Positions 29,640-45,017 of a stretch of DNA of 64,000 nucleotides are shown one piece after another. Below the pieces are notes generated by a model. The model was not told the origin of the DNA, ran no database searches, and was given only the letters and a program-made list of their open reading frames with translations. Position numbers and translations under genes: made by a program. Position 1 is the first letter of the stretch, and each line of letters opens with the position of its first letter. The stretch comes from Pseudomonas fluorescens (GTDB lineage Bacteria > Pseudomonadota > Gammaproteobacteria > Pseudomonadales > Pseudomonadaceae), in NCBI RefSeq assembly GCF_001623525.1, contig NZ_CP015225.1, positions 5,406,501 through 5,470,500 on the forward strand, given 5' to 3'.

Positions 29640-31589
29640 ATGCTGAACACCCTTCTTCCTATCCTGCTGTTCGCAGCCCTGGGCCTCGCGGTCCTCGGCG
29701 CCTTGCGGCGGGTGAATATGTGGCGCCGGGGGCGACCGTCCAAGGTCGACCTGATCGGCGGCCTCTTCGCCATGCCCAAGCGCTACATGGTGGACTTGCA
29801 CCATGTGGTGGCGCGGGACAAATACATTGCCAACACCCACGTGGCCACGGCCGGTGGTGCGGTGGCGTCGGTGGTGCTGGCGATACTGGTCCATGGTTTC
29901 GGCCTGCATAACCGCTTCCTCGGCTACGCCTTGCTGTTGATGACGGCCGTCATGTTTGTCGGTGCGATCTTCGTCTATCTGCGTCGGCGCAATCCGCCGG
30001 CCCGTTTGTCCAAGGGCCCATGGATGCGCCTGCCGAAAAGCCTGTTGGCCTTCTCGGCATCGTTCTTCCTGGTGACCCTGCCGGTGGCGGGGATCCTGCC
30101 GGAGAACTTCGGCGGTTGGCTGGTGGCGGCGGTCCTGGGTGTCGGTGTGCTGTGGGGCGTGTCGGAACTGTTCTTCGGCATGACCTGGGGCGGGCCGATG
30201 AAGCACGCCTTCGCCGGTGCCTTGCACCTGGCCTGGCACCGCCGCGCCGAGCGTTTTGGCGGCGGTCGTTCCACCGGGCTCAAGCCGTTGGACCTGAACG
30301 ACCCAGCGGCACCGCTGGGCGTCGAGAAACCCAGGGATTTCACCTGGAACCAACTGCTGGGTTTCGACGCCTGCGTGCAGTGCGGCAAGTGTGAAGCGGC
30401 CTGCCCGGCGTTTGCCGCGGGCCAGCCGCTGAACCCGAAAAAGCTCATCCAGGACATGGTCGTCGGCCTGGCCGGTGGCACCGATGCGAAATTCGCTGGC
30501 AGCCCATACCCGGGCAAACCCGTGGGCGAACACGGCGGCAATCCTCATCAGCCGATCGTCAATGGCCTGGTGGACGCCGAGACGCTGTGGTCCTGCACCA
30601 CCTGCCGGGCCTGCGTCGAGGAATGCCCGATGATGATCGAGCACGTCGATGCCATCGTCGACATGCGTCGTCACCTGACTCTGGAAAAAGGCGCCACGCC
30701 AAACAAAGGTGCCGAGGTCCTGGAAAACCTCATCGCTACCGACAACCCAGGTGGCTTTGCCCCGGGCGGGCGGATGAACTGGGCGGCGGACCTGAACCTG
30801 AACCTGCTCAGCGAGAAGAAATCCACCGACGTGCTGTTCTGGGTCGGCGACGGTGCCTTCGACATGCGCAACCAGCGCACCCTGCGGGCGTTCGTCAAAG
30901 TGCTGAAGGCGGCGAAGATCGACTTCGCCGTGCTCGGCCTCGAAGAACGCGACAGCGGCGACGTGGCCCGGCGCCTGGGTGATGAGGCGACGTTCCAGCT
31001 GTTGGCCAAACGCAACATCCAGACCCTGGCCAAATACAGCTTCAACCGCATCGTCACCTGTGACCCCCACAGTTTCCACGTACTGAAAAACGAATACGGC
31101 GCCTTCGATGGCAACTACCTGGTGCAGCACCACAGCACCTATATGGCGGAAATCATCGACGCCGGCGCCCTGAACCTCGGCCAGCACAAGGGCGACAGCG
31201 TGACGTATCACGACCCGTGCTACCTGGGCCGCTACAACGGCGAATACGAGGCGCCGCGCCAGGTGCTGCGTGCGCTGGGTATCGAGGTCAAGGAGATGCA
31301 GCGTTCCGGTTTCCGTTCGCGTTGCTGCGGCGGTGGCGGCGGTGCGCCGATCACCGACATCCCGGGCAAGCAGCGGATTCCCGACATGCGCATGGAAGAC
31401 ATCCGCGAAACCGGCGCTGAGCTGGTGGCGGTAGGTTGTCCACAGTGCACCGCGATGCTCGAAGGCGTGGTCGAGCCGCGGCCGATGATCAAGGACATCG
31501 CCGAACTGGTGGCCGACGCGCTGCTGGAAGACGCGGCCCCGAGCAAACCGGTGATCCCGGTCAAACGTGAACCCGCGGAGGTGCATTAA
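29640..31589 (+). CDS. dgcB: Dimethylglycine demethylase Fe-S subunit DgcB
   Basis: 649 residues. An N-terminal membrane part has four or so helices (MLNTLLPILLFAALGLAVLG; SVVLAILVHGFGL; ALLLMTAVMFVGAIFVYL; LLAFSASFFLVTLPVAG). Two ferredoxin-like 4Fe-4S motifs follow (CVQCGKCEAACP and CTTCRACVEECP), then heterodisulfide-reductase-type CCG domains (HDPCYLGRYN and SRCCGGGGG). It is an ETF:quinone-type or HdrD-like electron carrier that would link demethylation to the respiratory chain. The start at 29640 follows a REP doublet. Its stop overlaps the etfA start (TAATG), showing coupling. Confidence 0.92.
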   Translation: MLNTLLPILLFAALGLAVLGALRRVNMWRRGRPSKVDLIGGLFAMPKRYMVDLHHVVARDKYIANTHVATAGGAVASVVLAILVHGFGLHNRFLGYALLLMTAVMFVGAIFVYLRRRNPPARLSKGPWMRLPKSLLAFSASFFLVTLPVAGILPENFGGWLVAAVLGVGVLWGVSELFFGMTWGGPMKHAFAGALHLAWHRRAERFGGGRSTGLKPLDLNDPAAPLGVEKPRDFTWNQLLGFDACVQCGKCEAACPAFAAGQPLNPKKLIQDMVVGLAGGTDAKFAGSPYPGKPVGEHGGNPHQPIVNGLVDAETLWSCTTCRACVEECPMMIEHVDAIVDMRRHLTLEKGATPNKGAEVLENLIATDNPGGFAPGGRMNWAADLNLNLLSEKKSTDVLFWVGDGAFDMRNQRTLRAFVKVLKAAKIDFAVLGLEERDSGDVARRLGDEATFQLLAKRNIQTLAKYSFNRIVTCDPHSFHVLKNEYGAFDGNYLVQHHSTYMAEIIDAGALNLGQHKGDSVTYHDPCYLGRYNGEYEAPRQVLRALGIEVKEMQRSGFRSRCCGGGGGAPITDIPGKQRIPDMRMEDIRETGAELVAVGCPQCTAMLEGVVEPRPMIKDIAELVADALLEDAAPSKPVIPVKREPAEVH

Positions 31590-32809
31590 TGAGCGACATC
31601 ATCCGCCGCGACCCTCGCGCCGAGTGGATCGCCCGCAACCGCCTGCACCCGCTGCACGCGGCCATGCAACCGGTGCAACACAGCTGGATGGGGCCCAACG
31701 GCGTCATTCGCAAAAATGTCCATGGCATCGGTTTCATCGGTCCCAACGGCATCAAGCGCATCGACCGCAGCGGCGCCCAGCAGGGAGGCGCGAGCAAGCG
31801 TACTGCCGCCGTTGAAGTGCAACTGCCGTTGCATCAGGTGCCGCAACCGGCGTTCTACATCAGCGTGGTGCCGGACATGGTCGGGGGCCGCTTGAGCAGC
31901 CACGACCGCGATCTGTTGGGCCTGGCCCATCAGCTTGCAGGTACGGACGGTGCAGTGCTGGCGGTGGTCTTCGGCGAGCACAAGGAAAACACCTTCGCCA
32001 CGGCCGGTGTCGACCGCTTGCTGGTGCTCGATGGCGAGGAATTCAGCGGTTATGCACCGGAACAACGGGTCCAGGGCCTACGGGCTGTGGATAACCAATT
32101 CAACCCCCGCCATTGGTTGCTGCCCGACAGTCGCACCGGTGGCGGCGAACTGGGCCGGCGCTTGGCGGCGGCCCTGGGCGAACGCCCGGCCACGCGGGTC
32201 TGGCAGGTCAAGGGCGAAGAGTGCATCGGCCGCGCCGGTGCCGGCCTGCAAGACCTGGCCCGGCCATTGGCGCGCTTGATCCTGGCAGCGGCCGAATGCG
32301 CTGAACCGGTCAGCGAAACCCGCCACGAAGCCTTGCCGGTGGAGTTATCCACAAGCGTGGCCCGCAGCTTGTCGCGTATCGAAGACCTCGGCGCGGTGGC
32401 GGTGGACCCGGGGGCGATCCCGATGGCCGAGGCCGAATTCATTTTCTCCGGCGGCAACGGGGTCAAGGACTGGGCACTGTTCCACCAGACCGCAGCGGCC
32501 CTGGGCGCCACCGAAGGCGCTTCGCGGGTGGCGGTGGACGACGGCTTCATGGCCCGCGATCGCCAGGTCGGTGCGTCCGGCACTTGGGTTACGGCGCGGG
32601 TTTACGTGGCCGTGGGGATTTCCGGGGCAATCCAGCACCTGCAGGGCATTGGCGCCTGCGACAAGGTGGTGGCAATCAACCTCGACCCAGGCTGCGACAT
32701 GATCAAACGGGCAGACCTGTCGGTGATCGGTGACAGCGCGGCGATTCTCCAGGCCTTGATCGCGGCGGTAGAGACTTACCGCAACGAAGCCAAGCGCGAT
32801 GCGGCTTAA
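31589..32809 (+). CDS. etfA: Electron transfer flavoprotein alpha subunit of the dgc system
   Basis: 406 residues, longer than usual EtfA because of an N-terminal extension (RRDPRAEWIARNRLHPLHAAMQ ... NVHGIGFIGPNGIKRID). The C-terminal FAD-binding domain is typical: FIFSGGNGVKDW, GASGTWVTARVYVAVGISGAIQH and AINLDPGCDMIKRADLSVIGD. It accepts electrons from the demethylase and passes them on with EtfB. It is a dedicated paralogue, distinct from the housekeeping etf genes. Two perfect DnaA-box 9-mers lie within the gene (32086-32094 and 32345-32353). Confidence 0.92.
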   Translation: MSDIIRRDPRAEWIARNRLHPLHAAMQPVQHSWMGPNGVIRKNVHGIGFIGPNGIKRIDRSGAQQGGASKRTAAVEVQLPLHQVPQPAFYISVVPDMVGGRLSSHDRDLLGLAHQLAGTDGAVLAVVFGEHKENTFATAGVDRLLVLDGEEFSGYAPEQRVQGLRAVDNQFNPRHWLLPDSRTGGGELGRRLAAALGERPATRVWQVKGEECIGRAGAGLQDLARPLARLILAAAECAEPVSETRHEALPVELSTSVARSLSRIEDLGAVAVDPGAIPMAEAEFIFSGGNGVKDWALFHQTAAALGATEGASRVAVDDGFMARDRQVGASGTWVTARVYVAVGISGAIQHLQGIGACDKVVAINLDPGCDMIKRADLSVIGDSAAILQALIAAVETYRNEAKRDAA

Positions 32810-32822
32810 GAAGGATAAGTTG

Positions 32823-33593
32823 ATGAGTACCCAAGTGATCAGCCTCGTGTCCATCGGCGCCCACCCCACTTCCGGGCGCCCCCGGCGCGCTGAACAGGAC
32901 GCCCGGGCCGTGGAGCTGGGCCTGCAACTGGCCGGCAGCGACCTGCAAGTGCTGCACGCCGGTGACGTGGCCGAACCGGCCCTGCGCGCCTACCTGGGCA
33001 TGGGCCTGGATGAATTGCACGTGCTGGAAAACCCCGTCGGCGCCGACGCCCTGCCGGCCCTGACCGATTACCTGCGTGATGCCGGCGCCCAAGTGGTGCT
33101 CACCGGTAGCCAGGCGGAAACCGGTGAAGGCTCGGGCATGCTGCCGTTCCTGCTGGCCGAGAATCTCGGTTGGCCGCTGGTGGTGGGGCTGGCCCAGGTC
33201 GAATCCATCGACGGCGGTGTGGCCCTGGTGCTGCAAGCCTTGCCTCGTGGCCAACGGCGTCGCCTGAAAGTGCGCCTGCCGTTCCTGGCCACTGTGGATA
33301 ACGCCGCGCCAAAACCTCGGCAAAGCGCCTACGGCCCGGCCCGGCGCGGGGCGTTGCACGCTGAAGAGGTGGAGGTGCTCGATGACACCTTGCTGGCAGT
33401 GGCGACCCTGCAACCGGCCAAGCCACGCCCCAAACGCTTGAAAGTGATCAAGGCCAAGAGCGGCGCCGACCGCATGAAAGCCGCCACGGCCAAGGCCAGT
33501 GGCGGAGGCGGGCAGGTGCTCAAGGGCGTGAGCCCTGAGGCCGGGGCCGAGGCGATTCTCAAGCTGTTGATTGAGGAAGGGGTTGTTCGCTAA
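32823..33593 (+). CDS. etfB: Electron transfer flavoprotein beta subunit of the dgc system
   Basis: 256 residues. EtfB fold: an N-terminal strand (STQVISLVSIGAHPTSGRPRRAEQDARAVELGLQL), the ETF motif region VVLTGSQAETGEGSGMLPFLLAENLGWPLV, then a low-complexity basic C-terminus (KPRPKRLKVIKAKSGADRMKA). It begins 14 bases after etfA with an AAGGA-like site (AAGAAGGATAAG). It pairs with EtfA. The gene's 3' part carries a perfect DnaA-box 9-mer at 33293-33301, the third of the cluster that continues downstream. Confidence 0.9.
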   Translation: MSTQVISLVSIGAHPTSGRPRRAEQDARAVELGLQLAGSDLQVLHAGDVAEPALRAYLGMGLDELHVLENPVGADALPALTDYLRDAGAQVVLTGSQAETGEGSGMLPFLLAENLGWPLVVGLAQVESIDGGVALVLQALPRGQRRRLKVRLPFLATVDNAAPKPRQSAYGPARRGALHAEEVEVLDDTLLAVATLQPAKPRPKRLKVIKAKSGADRMKAATAKASGGGGQVLKGVSPEAGAEAILKLLIEEGVVR

Positions 33594-33611
33594 ACCCAGG
33601 AACACCTGAGT

Positions 33612-33646
33612 CCCCCTGTGGGAGCAAGCTCGCTCCCACAGGGGGG
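33612..33646. repeat. REP half element, CTGTGGGAGCAAGCTCGCTCCCACAG type
   Basis: CCCCCTGTGGGAGC and its complement GCTCCCACAGGGGG around AAGCTC-like centre, just after etfB. It may end the dgc/etf transcript, though there is no T-run. Confidence 0.8.
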
Positions 33647-33677
33647 CATGTGTTTGCCCGCCGTTGCTGTGGGCCTC

Positions 33678-35179
33678 TGTGGATAACCTGTCCGGCTTCG
33701 CCGCAAAGGCCATCCAGGCCTGCGCTCAAAACACCCGCCTGACCTGCTGCAACATCCGGCCATAAAACCACTGGCCTGGCGGGTTGCCGCGTCTCACGCC
33801 TGTGGGTAAAAAAGGTCGTTTCATCGCCAATGGAGTCCCCTCAATGGAAGTAGCAATTCGTCCGGCCTTGCCCACGGATACACACGAGATCGCTCGTTTG
33901 TTCCGGATCTCCTCGGAGGGTGCATCGGATTACATCTGGAGCCAGCTGGCGGAGCCAGGCCAGGATCTCCTTGACGTGGGCGCCGCGCGTTATGCCCGGG
34001 AAGATGTCGATTTTTCCTACCAGAACTGCCTTGTCGCCGAGGCCAACGGCCAGGTCATTGGCATGATGCACGCTTATGTCACACGTCATGATCCACAGGC
34101 GGCCCCCGTGACAGACCCGGTCCTGGCGCCCTACGCCGACATGGAAATCCCCGACACCCTCTATATCTCCAGCCTGGCCCTCCATGAAGGTTGGCGCAGC
34201 AAGGGGTTGGGCGTGCGTTTCCTCGAGCGGGCCCAGCAGCGTGCCGATCAGTTGGAGCTCAAGGGCCTGAGCTTGATCGACTATGCCGCGAACACCGGCG
34301 CCCGGCGCTTTTACGAGCGCCATGGCTTCAGCATCGTCAAGACCTGTCAGGTTGTCCCGCATCCGATGATTCAGGTAACGGGCGCCGCCTACCTCATGCA
34401 TCGGCCTTGACCGGCACGGCGCAAACCCTGGCGCGGGGCACAGGTTGGCCCGGTCCCACAGGTAAGTATGGGGTTACCCACAATCCCTGTGCGCGCCTCT
34501 GTGGATAACCTGTTCGCCCCTCGCGGTACACCACGCCAATCGGGCTCTCCAGGGCAGTGCTCAAAAAATAGACAGGCTAACCTACGGTTTTTCATGGGTT
34601 TTGTGTGTGAATAAGCTCGGGTGCATAACAACACTTGCCCCCAATCTCTGTTGGCGCTTCTGTGGATAAGATGTTCGCTCTACGCTACAAGCCATACGAA
34701 CCGGGGGCTTCCGTGGGCTGGTCATAAAATGATCAAACAGCCATTTTTATCAGGAAAACCTCCGTGAAACCGCGATTTACAAGCCGTCAGAAGGGTTTTC
34801 CACAGAATCGTCAAAACTACCCCCAAACACTGTTGGCGCTTCTGTGGATAAGGTGTTCGCTTACCGCCACACGCCTTGCCAGGCATGGCTTACAGGTATT
34901 TGATCAAAAAACAACCGATGGGCCGGTAAAACCGTCATTGTTCATAAGTCACGGTTTTTATTCACTTTGTCGGTGGAAAAATGCCGGACATACACGTACT
35001 TGTCCCCATTTGCTGTGGGTGGTCATGTGGATAACTTGTTCGCCAAACGCTGCAAGCCACGGCGGGCATAGCGCAAATCGTGATAGATCAAATTTCATAC
35101 AGTTCTAAGTCATACCCTTGACGAGGGTCTGTGGGCTGTCTTCACTCCATGGCACAAGGACATCGCTCATTTATCCACA
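33678..35179. repeat. Array of consensus DnaA boxes, spaced by 160-185 bases
   Basis: Perfect TGTGGATAA 9-mers lie at 33678-33686, 34500-34508, 34661-34669, 34843-34851 and 35026-35034, and the opposite orientation TTATCCACA at 35171-35179. One-mismatch boxes are at 33801-33809, 34474-34482 and 34796-34804. Around the boxes a longer context is kept: upstream CCCC-AA--CTGTTGGCGCTTC, downstream TGTTCGC. Three further perfect boxes lie in etfA and etfB. Apart from the GNAT gene and a possible 40-codon ORF, the 33594-35460 stretch holds no other gene. Confidence 0.85.
33844..34410 (+). CDS. GNAT-family N-acetyltransferase
   Basis: 188 residues. The acetyl-CoA-binding motif A is seen as SLALHEGWRSKGLGVRFLERAQQRA (about residues 112-136; the R-x-x-G-x-G/A loop is RSKGLG). 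A C-terminal block ARRFYERHGF is typical of GNATs. It transfers an acetyl group from acetyl-CoA to an unknown amine. The start at 33844 (MEVAIRPALP) was preferred to 33784 because it begins the domain directly. It is monocistronic and sits inside the DnaA-box array. Confidence 0.85.
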   Translation: MEVAIRPALPTDTHEIARLFRISSEGASDYIWSQLAEPGQDLLDVGAARYAREDVDFSYQNCLVAEANGQVIGMMHAYVTRHDPQAAPVTDPVLAPYADMEIPDTLYISSLALHEGWRSKGLGVRFLERAQQRADQLELKGLSLIDYAANTGARRFYERHGFSIVKTCQVVPHPMIQVTGAAYLMHRP

Positions 35180-35198
35180 TCAGGTTCAGGGAGAACAC

Positions 35199-35321
35199 AT
35201 GATGGATAGCCAACCCCCTCGCTCGTATTCATTTTCTCCTGCGACGTGCGTCCCGACGCGTCCCACCTCGTTGCCCAAACGGCCCGCTCGCCGTGCCGTC
35301 AATCTGCGTGCGCGGCTATAG
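35199..35321 (+). CDS. Possible 40-residue basic peptide upstream of the GMC operon
   Basis: A short ORF (MMDSQPPRSYSFSP..., ending in Arg-rich KRPARRAVNLRARL) has a good GGGAG six bases upstream of its ATG. It lies in the leader of the GMC/hydrolase gene. It may be a regulatory leader or chance. No relatives recognised. Confidence 0.3.
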   Translation: MMDSQPPRSYSFSPATCVPTRPTSLPKRPARRAVNLRARL

Positions 35322-35460
35322 CGCCCCAGCAGGTTCCCGCGTTTCCCCGTAACACCGCTGACTGCCGCTCGAACCCGTACGGGATAGTGGCCAGGCGTTC
35401 GTGCGCCTGTCGATTTGCAGGCAACCGCAGAGTTGCCCCTTCTGCCTTGAGGACTTGAAC

Positions 35461-38400
35461 ATGACACGGATCTCGACCCCCATCAGTGATATCCAGGAGC
35501 ACTACGACGTCATCGTCATCGGTTCCGGCTACGGTGGCGGCATTGCTGCCTCGCGCCTGTCCCGGGCCGGGCGCAAGGTGTGCCTGCTGGAGCGTGGCCG
35601 GGAGATCCAGCCCGGCGAATACCCCAACACCCTGCTCGCGGCCACCGAGGAACTGCAGGTCCATGACCCGGACGGGCATATCGGTTCGCGCACCGGGCTG
35701 TTCGACCTGCACGTTAACGCCCAGCAGAACGTGGTGGTCGGTTGCGGCCTGGGTGGCACGTCGTTGATCAATGCCAACGTTGCGCTGGAGCCGGAGCCTG
35801 GCGTGTTCGACGACCCGCGCTGGCCCCTGGCGGTGCGTGAGCACCGCGACACGCTGCTCAAGGATGGCTACGCACGGGCCCGGGAGATGCTCAAACCCAA
35901 CGCCTATCCGGCGTCGGAACCAAACCTGCCCAAGCTCGATGCCCACAAGAAGTCCGCCGATTACCTCAAGCAAGGCGCGCATTTCTACAAGCCGCCGATC
36001 AACGTGACTTTCGACAAATTGCCCAACAACCTCAACCACGTCGGCGTCGAACAACTGCCGTGCAATGGTTGTGGTGATTGCGTTTCGGGCTGTAACAACA
36101 AGGCCAAGAACACCACGCTGATGAACTACCTGCCGGATGCCTGGAACCACGGCGCGGAGATTTTCTGCCAGGCCGAGGTGCGGCACCTGGAGCGCGACGG
36201 CGATGGCTGGATCGTGCACTTCCAGTACTTGGACAGCGGTCGCGAGATGTTCTCGGCGCCGACCCTGTTCGTGCGTGCTGACATCGTGGTGGTGTCCGCC
36301 GGCACCCTGGGTTCCACCGAAATCATGTTGCGCTCGCGGGACAAGGGCCTGTCCATGTCCGACCAACTGGGCGAGCACATGAGCGGCAACGGCGACATCC
36401 TCGGCTTCGGCCACAACTGCGACCAGGTCATCAACGGTATTGGTTTCGGTGCCCATTCGGCCAAGGAACTGGAACCGGTGGGGCCGTGCATCACCTCGGT
36501 CATCGACATGCGCACCGAGGGTGACTGGCGCAGCCGCATGGTCATCGAGGAAGGTTCGATTCCCGGCGCCCTCGGTCGGGCCATGGTGCCGAGCATGGCG
36601 GCGTTTGCCGGGATGATAGGCGTGCCCACCGACACCGGTTTCGGGGCCAGCCTCAAATACAAAGGCCGGGAGGCCGAGAGTTTCCTGCGCGGCCCTTATT
36701 ACGGCGCGCTGCATAACATGCAGACCTACCTGATCATGAGCCACGACGACGCCAAGGGCCGCATGGTGCTCGACAACAAGGACCAGTTACGCATCGACTG
36801 GCCCGGCGTCGGCGAACAGGAGAACGTCACCCTCGGCAACGAGCGGCTGCACCAGAGCACCAAGGCCCTGGGCGGGATCTGGGTCGAGAACCCGATCTGG
36901 ACCAAGCTGCTCAAGCACAGCATCGTCTCGGTCCATCCTCTGGGCGGTTGCGTGATGGGCGAGGATGCGACCCAAGGCGTGGTCAACCACAAGGGCCAGG
37001 TGTTCAGTGGCGCCAGTGGCACGGATGTCTACCCGGGCTTGTACGTGACCGACGGTGCGGTGATCCCGACGTCCCTGGCGGTCAACCCGTTGCTGACCAT
37101 CTCGGCCGTGAGCGAGCGCAACATGGGGTTGCTGGCAGCCGACCGCGGCTGGACCATCGACTACACGCTGCCCTCGGCCCCGCGCAAGCCGGTGGCCGCG
37201 CCGACCCTCGGCGTGCAGTTCACCGAAACCATGAAGGGCTACTTTTCCACAGCCTTCATCCAGCCCCAGGGCACCGATCTGAGCCTGTACGAAGCAGCGG
37301 TCAAGCGGGGCAGGGCCGACAACTCATCCATCGAATTCACCCTGACCATCACCGCCGTCGACCTCAACCGCCTGATCAAGGAGCCGGAACACGCCGCGAC
37401 CCTGGTGGGCACTCTCGATGCACCGCTGCTCTCACCGCAACCGCTGGTGGCCAGCAATGGGGTGTTCAACCTGTTCGAGCAGTACCAGGAACAGGTTGGC
37501 GTACGGCACATGAACTACGACATGAAGTTGACCGCCGAGGACGGCAACGATTACTACTTCAGCGCCTTCAAGACCGTGCCCGAGGACAACGGCGTGCTGA
37601 ACATCTGGCATGACACCAGCACGCTCTATGTCACGCTCTATCGCGGGCCGGACAAGACTGGCGCGGTGATCGGTTCGGGGGTGATGCACATTCTGCCGAC
37701 CGACTTCGCCAAGCAAATGACCACCATGAAAGTGCTCAATGCCCGCAATGAACGTGAGCGCGTGGAGGCGCTGGCGCGGTTCGGCAAGTTTTTTGCCGGC
37801 ATCTTGTGGGAGAGCTACGGCGGTGTCTTCGCCGGCGACGTCTACTTCAACCCGGACGCGCCGCCCCGGTTGAAACGGCCGTTGGATGCGCCGCCACCGA
37901 TGGTGCATTTCTTCCAGACCGAAGACAACGTCGAGCTGCGCCTGACCCGTTACCAAGCCGGCACCAAAGGCCCGGTGATGTTGGTTCATGGCCTGGGCGT
38001 GGGCTCGAATATTTTCTCCACTGACACCATTCACACCAACCTGCTGGAATACCTCTGCAAGCACGAATACGACGTCTGGCTGCTGGATTTGCGGGTGAGC
38101 ATCCTGCTGCCGGCCAGCAAGCACGAATGGAACGGCGACCAGGTGGCCCAGTACGATTTCAAGGCCGCCATCGAGCAGATCCAGCAAGCGACCCTGGCCC
38201 GTGACGTGCAGTGCGTGGTGCATTGCTACGGCGCGACGACGTTCTTCATGTCGATGCTGGCGGGGTTGCAGGGCGTGCGTTCGGTGGTCTGCTCGCAGAT
38301 CGCCGCCGACACGGTGGTGGCCACCGCCACCGGTCTGAAAGCCGGTTTGCATTTGCCGGGGATGCTCGATGCCATCGGTATCAAGTCCCTCACGGCTTAC

Positions 38401-43916: not shown

Positions 43917-45017
43917 ATGTCCAATAACTTCCTGAACCCGGTCACGACCCAGACCTGGGCCAATGGCCGACATATCGTACGTTGCGTCAAAGTCATCCAG
44001 GAAACCTGGGATGTGCGCACGTTCTGCTTCATGGCCGACCAGCCAATCATGTTCTTTTTCAAGCCGGGACAGTTTGTCACCCTGGAGCTGGAAATCGAAG
44101 GCCAGCCGATCATGCGCTCCTACACCATCTCCAGTTCGCCGTCGGTGCCCTACAGTTTTTCGGTGACCATCAAGCGCGTTCCGGGGGGCAAGGTTTCCAA
44201 CTGGCTGCACGACACCCTGCATGAAGGTCAGGAGCTGGCGGTGCACGGGCCGGTGGGGTTGTTCAACGCCATCGATTTCCCAAGCCCGAAAGTCCTGTAC
44301 CTGAGCGGTGGCGTGGGGATCACGCCGTGCATGTCCATGGCGCGCTGGTTCTACGACACCAACGCCAATGTCGACATGACCTTTATCCACAGCGCCCGCT
44401 CGCCCAAGGACATCATCTACCACCGCGAGCTGGAACACATGGCGTCGCGGATCGACAACTTCAGCCTGCACCTGATCTGCGAAAAACATGGCCTGGGCGA
44501 GCCTTGGGCCGGGTATCGCGGTTATCTGAACCACAAGATGCTGGAATTGATGGTGCCCGACTTCCTCGAGCGCGAGGTGTTCTGCTGCGGCCCGACCCCA
44601 TACATGACCGCGGTCAAGCGCCTGCTGGAAGCGGCCGGCTACGACATGAAGCGTTATCACGAGGAATCCTTCGGCGCTACACCACCGGAAGCCCGCGCCG
44701 ACGCCGTGGAACAGGCCGAACAGGCTGCCGACGCGCCGGAAGTCGATGCGGCGGACCTGCACCTGGTGGAGTTCACCTCCTCTGGCAAGAGCATTCGCGT
44801 GGGACCGGGCGAAACCGTGCACGCTGCGGCTGCCAAGCTCGGCATGATGATCCCCAAGGCTTGCGGCATGGGCATCTGCGGCACCTGCAAGGTGCTGAAG
44901 CTGGGCGGGGAAGTGGAAATGGACCACAACGGCGGGATCACCGAGGACGACGAGGCCGAGGGCTACATCCTGTCGTGCTGCAGCGTGCCGAAGGGGGATG
45001 TGCGGATCGAGTTCTGA
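43917..45017 (+). CDS. gbcB: Glycine betaine monooxygenase, reductase subunit GbcB
   Basis: 366 residues. Ferredoxin-NAD(P)H reductase-like: FAD-binding RSYTISSSP (about residue 66), the NAD domain GGVGITPCMSMARWF, and a C-terminal plant-type 2Fe-2S ferredoxin domain with CGMGICGTCK and a final CCS. It passes electrons from NAD(P)H to GbcA. The start at 43917 (MSNNFLNPV) has GGAG seven bases upstream and was preferred to 43851. It is divergent from gbcA. Confidence 0.95.
   Translation: MSNNFLNPVTTQTWANGRHIVRCVKVIQETWDVRTFCFMADQPIMFFFKPGQFVTLELEIEGQPIMRSYTISSSPSVPYSFSVTIKRVPGGKVSNWLHDTLHEGQELAVHGPVGLFNAIDFPSPKVLYLSGGVGITPCMSMARWFYDTNANVDMTFIHSARSPKDIIYHRELEHMASRIDNFSLHLICEKHGLGEPWAGYRGYLNHKMLELMVPDFLEREVFCCGPTPYMTAVKRLLEAAGYDMKRYHEESFGATPPEARADAVEQAEQAADAPEVDAADLHLVEFTSSGKSIRVGPGETVHAAAAKLGMMIPKACGMGICGTCKVLKLGGEVEMDHNGGITEDDEAEGYILSCCSVPKGDVRIEF

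Follow-up and report, generated by a model that had tools for sequence, protein, structure and literature searches.

What does a dense group of binding sites for the replication initiator DnaA do in a part of the Pseudomonas fluorescens chromosome outside the origin? The question is raised by a window of 64,000 nucleotides (the whole stretch of DNA analysed here, C1:5406501-5470500 in a single-contig genome of 6,919,098 bases), in which nine perfect copies of the 9-mer TTATCCACA, all of them DnaA boxes, fall within 3.1 kb that takes in etfA, etfB and the DNA behind them. To our knowledge, few loci that regulate DnaA away from oriC are known outside Bacillus subtilis and the relatives of Escherichia coli. 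That the boxes form a conserved DnaA-box cluster outside oriC, kept by selection, is well supported by the sequence comparisons described below.

A dense array of DnaA boxes outside oriC

All nine boxes are present where an earlier note on this DNA had placed them, and its estimate that well under one would be expected by chance agrees with our figure of 0.23 perfect matches per 64-kb window (at most two in 100 dinucleotide shuffles). Its statement that none occurs elsewhere in the window has to be corrected, as a tenth perfect box lies at 44383-44391. Chance clustering was ruled out by the dinucleotide shuffles together with uniform and local-density simulations. The same 9-mer is listed as a high-affinity DnaA box of P. 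putida in the available part of PMC4285127. Four of the boxes, at 34500, 34661, 34843 and 35026, follow one another in steps of 161, 182 and 183 bp within a common 56-nt context, which bears out the regular series in a shared context described earlier; this four-box core is flanked by genes for a GNAT protein and a GMC oxidoreductase. The coding sequences of etfA and etfB contain three of the nine, those at 32086, 32345 and 33293.

The features of the array are listed below. Mean column conservation refers to 122 aligned arrays selected for at least three perfect boxes, so that the values for the unit boxes are partly built in, and the conservation of the flanks, of the box at 34796 and of the Fis-like cores is independent of that selection.

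34474..35100, minus strand: core array, four tandem composite units, each a perfect DnaA box with a Fis-like core 59-60 bp on
34500..34508, minus strand: perfect DnaA box of unit 1, 94% conservation
34661..34669, minus strand: perfect DnaA box of unit 2, 100% conservation
34843..34851, minus strand: perfect DnaA box of unit 3, 100% conservation
35026..35034, minus strand: perfect DnaA box of unit 4, 97% conservation
34796..34804, plus strand: conserved DnaA box TTTTCCACA between units 2 and 3, 99% conservation
33678..33686, minus strand: outlying box with a unit-like context, 85 bp past the etfB stop codon
35171..35179, plus strand: inverted box, 145 bp past the unit 4 box

A search of 33591-35460 with the looser consensus TTWTNCACA adds the sites at 34606 and 34796. 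The latter is conserved, as 71% of 126 unit-2 copies have the exact consensus at this position (+135); the former is far less so (58% mean column conservation). Positions 35199-35321 of the window hold a small arginine-rich open reading frame of 40 amino acids with a DnaA box just upstream.

Across the genome the perfect box occurs 125 times, versus 17 matches to the reversed pattern; 118 of these boxes were placed, the remaining seven being past 6.589 Mb. No other 3.1-kb stretch among the 118 placed sites is as dense as the array, which has nine boxes at 5438586-5441679; the next-densest group, next to oriC at 4.894 Mb, has six. Over 20,000 simulations, at most four boxes were obtained under a uniform null and at most five under a local-density null. 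The genome-wide comparison with oriC suggested in the earlier note thus singles out the array, and the worry that the 9-mer might be equally clustered at many loci is removed, as no other place among the placed sites is as dense. Secondary groups of perfect boxes stand on either side of oriC (seven in 3.4 kb at C1:4893679-4897076 and five in 5.3 kb at C1:4877404-4882666), and three perfect boxes in 435 bp at C1:4048026-4048460, on the opposite side of oriC at a distance of about 840 kb, form a candidate DnaA site.

Conservation across the genus

Relatives were collected with etfB as the anchor. The main set of 181 loci consists of the window, 80 named loci (the best of 347 matches, those cut by contig ends counting as misses) and 100 unnamed loci, mostly over 11.8 kb, drawn from the 141 of 149 genus genomes that have an etfB match. 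Another 30 short loci (L086-L115, with flanks up to 1.5 kb) stand outside the 181; of the 111 etfB genomes without a short locus, 100 are in the main set, seven were added later, and G076, G082, G120 and G123 were left out.

At least three perfect boxes on the same strand occur downstream of etfB in 129 of the 181 loci, and at least two in 144. The distance from etfB to the array ranges from about 30 bp to 7 kb, with the inner spacing maintained. Six genomes without the array in the first 9 kb have it 11-12 kb downstream of etfB, again with normal spacing, while one genome has it 33 kb from etfB and two have it on a different contig, the number of boxes being three or four in these three. In a relative with 75% EtfB identity, three unit boxes directly follow etfB. 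An extended motif, TGTGGATAANNTGTTCG, has four copies in the genome under study, all within the array; it is present in 289 of 398 genus genomes and, outside the genus, occurs once each in 3 of 142 genomes of the order. Conservation in sister species, on which the earlier note had made its proposal depend, is therefore found. Judged from these counts, the array is mainly a trait of this genus and is missing from part of it.

Two distant relatives (L232 and L233, from G001 and G147) carry two divergent unit-like box contexts each, 194-195 bp apart, at 357 and 551 bp and at 363 and 558 bp past etfB. These are possibly another form of the array.

Whole-turn spacing of the boxes

Across the 181 loci, the spacings between consecutive same-strand boxes fall into the classes 55, 66, 106, 128, 139, 150, 161, 172, 182 and 193 bp, with one at 217 bp. 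Of the 411 spacings up to 240 bp, 408 deviate by no more than 2.5 bp from a multiple of 10.7 bp, as compared with about half of random lengths. A class periodogram gives a best period of 10.7 bp with a phase near zero (p about 5e-4 versus uniform classes, chains being limited to 240 bp), which places the boxes nearly an integral number of helical turns apart and so on the same face of the helix. When the 240-bp limit is removed, the best period is 10.65 bp (p about 3e-4) and the classes 248, 259, 299, 310, 317, 320 and 332 bp are added, of which 317 is off the ladder; up to 340 bp, 419 of 423 spacings lie within 2.5 bp of a ladder multiple. Further loci contribute single spacings, e.g., 107, 191, 194, 195, 249 and 330 bp.

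On an etfAB gene tree built with the boxes masked, the three slots (118, 127 and 121 of the 129 loci used) switch helical class at least 12, 8 and 6 times, respectively. The spacers also contain compensating indels: insertions together with deletions of at least 2 bp are seen, under strict gap costs, in 266 of 391 and 185 of 286 sampled divergent pairs of the same class, and they are present in alignments with looser gap costs as well. The 10-11 bp steps tend to sit about 40 bp before the next box.

Anatomy of the units

In the 122 aligned arrays, the consensus unit reads approximately TTRYCCMCA, 5 bp, TGTTGGCGC, 3 bp, TGTGGATAA, 2 bp and TGTTCGC. Unit 4 departs from it, with TGTGGGTGG upstream, and on their sequence the units look like diverged tandem duplicates. 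Each has candidate weak sites 2-3 bp from its strong box. In addition, TTWTNCACA with at most one mismatch occurs at -26 in 86% of 118 unit-1 copies. For the cores further along each unit we assumed GNNNAWWWWWTNNNC as the Fis pattern and WATCARNNNNTTR as the IHF pattern; the percentages listed are the copies that match the former with at most one mismatch.

34474..34482, plus strand: inverted site TTACCCACA, close to the consensus and 26 bp ahead of the unit 1 box
Starts 34635, 34817 and 35000: degenerate counterparts of TTACCCACA, namely TTGCCCCCA, CTACCCCCA and TTGTCCCCA
34559..34573, no strand assigned: Fis-like core of unit 1 (+59), 81% of 118 copies, exact in 10%
34720..34734, no strand assigned: Fis-like core of unit 2 (+59), 95% of 126 copies, exact in 40%
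34902..34916, no strand assigned: Fis-like core of unit 3 (+59), 100% of 126 copies, exact in 36%
35086..35100, no strand assigned: Fis-like core of unit 4 (+60), 60% of 121 copies, exact in 7%

At most other offsets GNNNAWWWWWTNNNC scores near zero. In units 2 and 3 the consensus at the Fis-like core is the dyad TTGATCAAAAAATGATCAA (TTGATCA-N5-TGATCAA), and the genome has a 119-amino-acid open reading frame of Fis size with an HTH_8 match. The accessible text of PMC8682772, from which the patterns GnnYAnnnnnTRnnC for Fis and TAAnnnnTTGATW for IHF were taken, holds that weak boxes at 2-3 bp intervals favour cooperative head-to-tail binding of DnaA. With at most one mismatch, the published Fis consensus GNNYANNNNNTRNNC is found at +59/+60 in 85%, 97%, 100% and 88% of units 1-4, respectively (exact in 14-53%). 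IHF as a spacing code was rejected for want of a fixed offset, despite total IHF-like matches in the arrays above a mononucleotide shuffle (254 versus 92 with at most one mismatch, 19 versus 5 exact). This excess is attributed, putatively, to ATCAA within the Fis-like dyad.

Boxes in coding sequence and neighbouring genes

Three of the boxes upstream of the core lie in two flavoprotein genes, and a third gene precedes the core.

31589..32809, plus strand: etfA-type gene (electron transfer flavoprotein alpha; Pfam PF00766, PF01012)
32823..33593, plus strand: etfB-type gene, the anchor for relatives (Pfam PF01012)
33844..34410, plus strand: GNAT acetyltransferase gene (Pfam PF00583)
32086..32094, minus strand: box in etfA over the Val-Asp-Asn codons GTGGATAAC, kept in 157 of 165 peptide-motif matches
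32345..32353, plus strand: box in etfA over GAG TTA TCC ACA (GAGTTATCCACA), kept in 118 of 147 peptide-motif matches
33293..33301, minus strand: box in etfB over the Val-Asp-Asn codons GTGGATAAC, kept in 147 of 179 loci with the peptide motif

The etfA box at 32345 uses rare codons, TTA accounting for 3 of 344 Leu codons and ACA for 7 of 175 Thr codons in seven window genes, the box itself included. For the codons of etfB, synonymous identity to the window was ranked, and those of its box take ranks 21, 32 and 4 of 225; GAT in the box is 85% identical, versus 66% and 18% at the other two GAT codons of the gene. Synonymous conservation of the etfB box codons is thus above average and not extreme. 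Genes in the neighbourhood are presumably dgc and gbc. In a search of 31500-36500 against Rfam, at E-values up to 1, no RNA family matched.

Position on the chromosome

The dnaA gene lies at 4887453-4888955, with four perfect boxes within the adjoining 273 bp, and the array is about 550 kb (8% of the chromosome) from it. Perfect boxes are concentrated toward oriC, 16 of the 118 placed sites lying at most 10 kb, and 2 more than 2 Mb, from the origin, in raw counts uncorrected for base composition. In a relative (G121), for which 100 of 135 sites were listed, a single listed site falls between 2.0 and 4.4 Mb, opposite dnaA.

The distance was taken in 39 genomes with dnaA and etfB on one contig, from 48 with a dnaA match (eight of the genome sizes are rounded). 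In 38 of them etfB lies 326-645 kb (6-12%) from dnaA, and in one 1114 kb; it is on one side of dnaA in 27 and on the other in 12.

Proposed function and alternative explanations

Dense boxes, a whole-turn spacing kept through indels, and boxes kept in coding sequence make a functional DnaA complex the best explanation of the locus. We consider it quite probable that this is a DnaA-binding locus that affects initiation in one direction or the other, and the best reading is that it would work like datA or DARS2 with an architecture of its own. DnaA would load on the strong boxes and spread head-to-tail onto the flanking weak sites 2-3 bp off; the phased units, perhaps organised by Fis, would then build one nucleoprotein complex. 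Being duplicated soon after initiation, the locus would lower free or active DnaA, by titration and possibly by ATP hydrolysis, and so prevent early re-initiation, as datA does in E. coli. This early duplication is why a negative role would be the most likely. The origin-proximal position and the many strong boxes are further reasons to prefer a datA-like role in which the array limits free or active DnaA, a role that we hold with close to even confidence.

Several observations weigh against this reading. The exact motif TGTGGATAANNTGTTCG is missing from 109 of 398 genus genomes, and no box occurs within 14 kb downstream of etfB in three genomes of another genus of the family (which we guess to be the P. 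aeruginosa group); on this evidence some lineages can do without the array. The etfB-dnaA distances are the same in genomes that lack array boxes near etfB, of which there are at least nine among the 39, so that the distance is a property of the neighbourhood and gives no sign that the array is under selection; for this reason our confidence in a negative role moved from even to a shade below. The flanking weak sites match the DnaA consensus at only about four of nine positions, and with one mismatch the Fis pattern also fits across the box itself (offset +3) in 83-94% of the copies of units 1-3, though exactly never or hardly ever. No IHF consensus was found at a fixed offset by a consensus scan that may miss a real site (at the best offset, at most one mismatch in 40% of one unit's copies, exact in at most 11%), which would leave hydrolysis of the datA type without its known cofactor site. 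As for the phasing, the 10.7-bp period was fitted to spacing classes that are not independent of ancestry, and several of the 10-11 bp indels sit at similar places and perhaps have one origin, which makes the tree counts upper estimates of independent events.

The alternative closest to the preferred role is reactivation of the DARS type, in which DnaA clusters together with Fis promote release of ADP, regenerate ATP-DnaA and stimulate initiation. We regard it as unlikely, though a serious contender. A Fis-like core is conserved in every unit and an IHF consensus is not, and in DARS2 of E. coli a strong box is accompanied, at Fis sites, by weak boxes at intervals of 2-3 bp. However, the four unit boxes all point the same way, unlike boxes I and II of DARS2, which act head-to-head (both points from PMC8682772, as far as its available text goes). 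DARS2 also uses IHF, and an origin-proximal site would fit a negative regulator better. DnaA may instead act as a transcription factor for the neighbours, namely etf, the small open reading frame and the downstream genes, which seems rather improbable. In 39 of 129 arrays the inverted box does stand 144-148 bp past the last unit box, and a short arginine-rich open reading frame comes next in 14 of 14 loci of that type among the downstream contexts printed (28 of 85). In 46 of the 129, however, the next plus-strand box is 1.7-2.8 kb off, within one conserved coding sequence (presumably gbcB-like) in 14 of 14 printed; 44 have no plus-strand box within 3 kb. Seven genomes have at least 11-12 kb between etfB and the array, and two carry the array on a different contig.

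A role in organising the chromosome instead of controlling initiation, whether through another protein or through DnaA with a nucleoid protein, would account for conservation beyond the 9-mer, which extends to CTGTTGGCG upstream, TGTTCGC downstream and the dyad in units 2 and 3. We think this quite improbable, as the boxes outside the array selection (34796 and those in etfA and etfB) are also conserved and oriC is marked by this 9-mer too; that the unit boxes are invariant is partly by construction and no argument against it. A second origin or autonomously replicating element, active or relic, is very improbable. Two autonomously replicating P. aeruginosa elements are cited in the available part of PMC4403523, and the array is AT-richer than its flanks, with a GC content of 0.40-0.56 over most of its length. 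The conservation of the sites speaks against the relic of an extra origin that the earlier note had entertained, and no negative-to-positive switch of GC skew was found at the array in a 4-kb profile of the window, itself a weak test. In that profile the skew falls across the array from slightly positive to slightly negative, opposite to an origin, and a shallow local minimum lies near 40-42 kb of the window instead. None of the six neighbouring proteins scanned with Pfam is a replication protein. A mobile origin was also rejected, as no similarity to phage or plasmid records was detected at E-values up to 1e-5.

The array may help set the timing of chromosome copying. It is conceivable, if still doubtful, that it represents a new class of replication-control element: a helically phased tandem DnaA/Fis array in a datA/DARS role across much of the genus, in which the whole-turn unit spacing is part of the code and boxes also lie in coding genes. 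If true, helical phasing over about 600 bp matters for a DnaA complex outside the origin. The claim that such a site had not been described for Pseudomonas holds for the open-access papers searched and no further: boxes at Pseudomonas oriC are described in these, and this locus is not described in the Pseudomonas genome and origin papers searched, as far as these were accessible, most subscription papers lying outside the search. Being widespread, easy to delete and ordered by a clear geometric rule, such a locus would offer a test of initiator-titration and nucleotide-switching models in Pseudomonas.

Comparison with known systems

In B. subtilis, clusters of DnaA boxes away from oriC modulate initiation, and the array would resemble them in this respect. 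Its likeness to datA of E. coli, which the earlier note had proposed, stands in part. Like datA, the array groups consensus DnaA boxes in non-coding DNA that is origin-proximal without being part of oriC, and in both spacing appears to matter. In contrast, datA needs an IHF site at a set spacing from its boxes (PMC10380432, in the part available), whereas the array has no fixed IHF consensus and conserves a Fis-like site instead, which brings it closer to DARS2. Moreover, datA is one compact core, whereas the array has four tandem units and further boxes in coding genes. Sequence similarity to datA is also lacking: when compared by blastn with 5,426 E. coli genomes, the array gave no match at E-values up to 1e-5.

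With DARS2 the array shares a strong box and may share weak boxes 2-3 bp off and Fis-consensus sites, both of them candidates here (PMC8682772, available text). It differs in having no fixed IHF consensus and no DNA similarity, a comparison made by blastn and described features with no search aimed at the core of boxes I-III, and in having four units with helical phasing. Lastly, an enrichment of DnaA boxes near the origin, with titration, is described for E. coli in PMC12371093, the main text of which, in the part available, does not contain the word Pseudomonas; boxes are concentrated toward oriC here and in one relative as well. That enrichment is a diffuse density, whereas the array is one organised locus.

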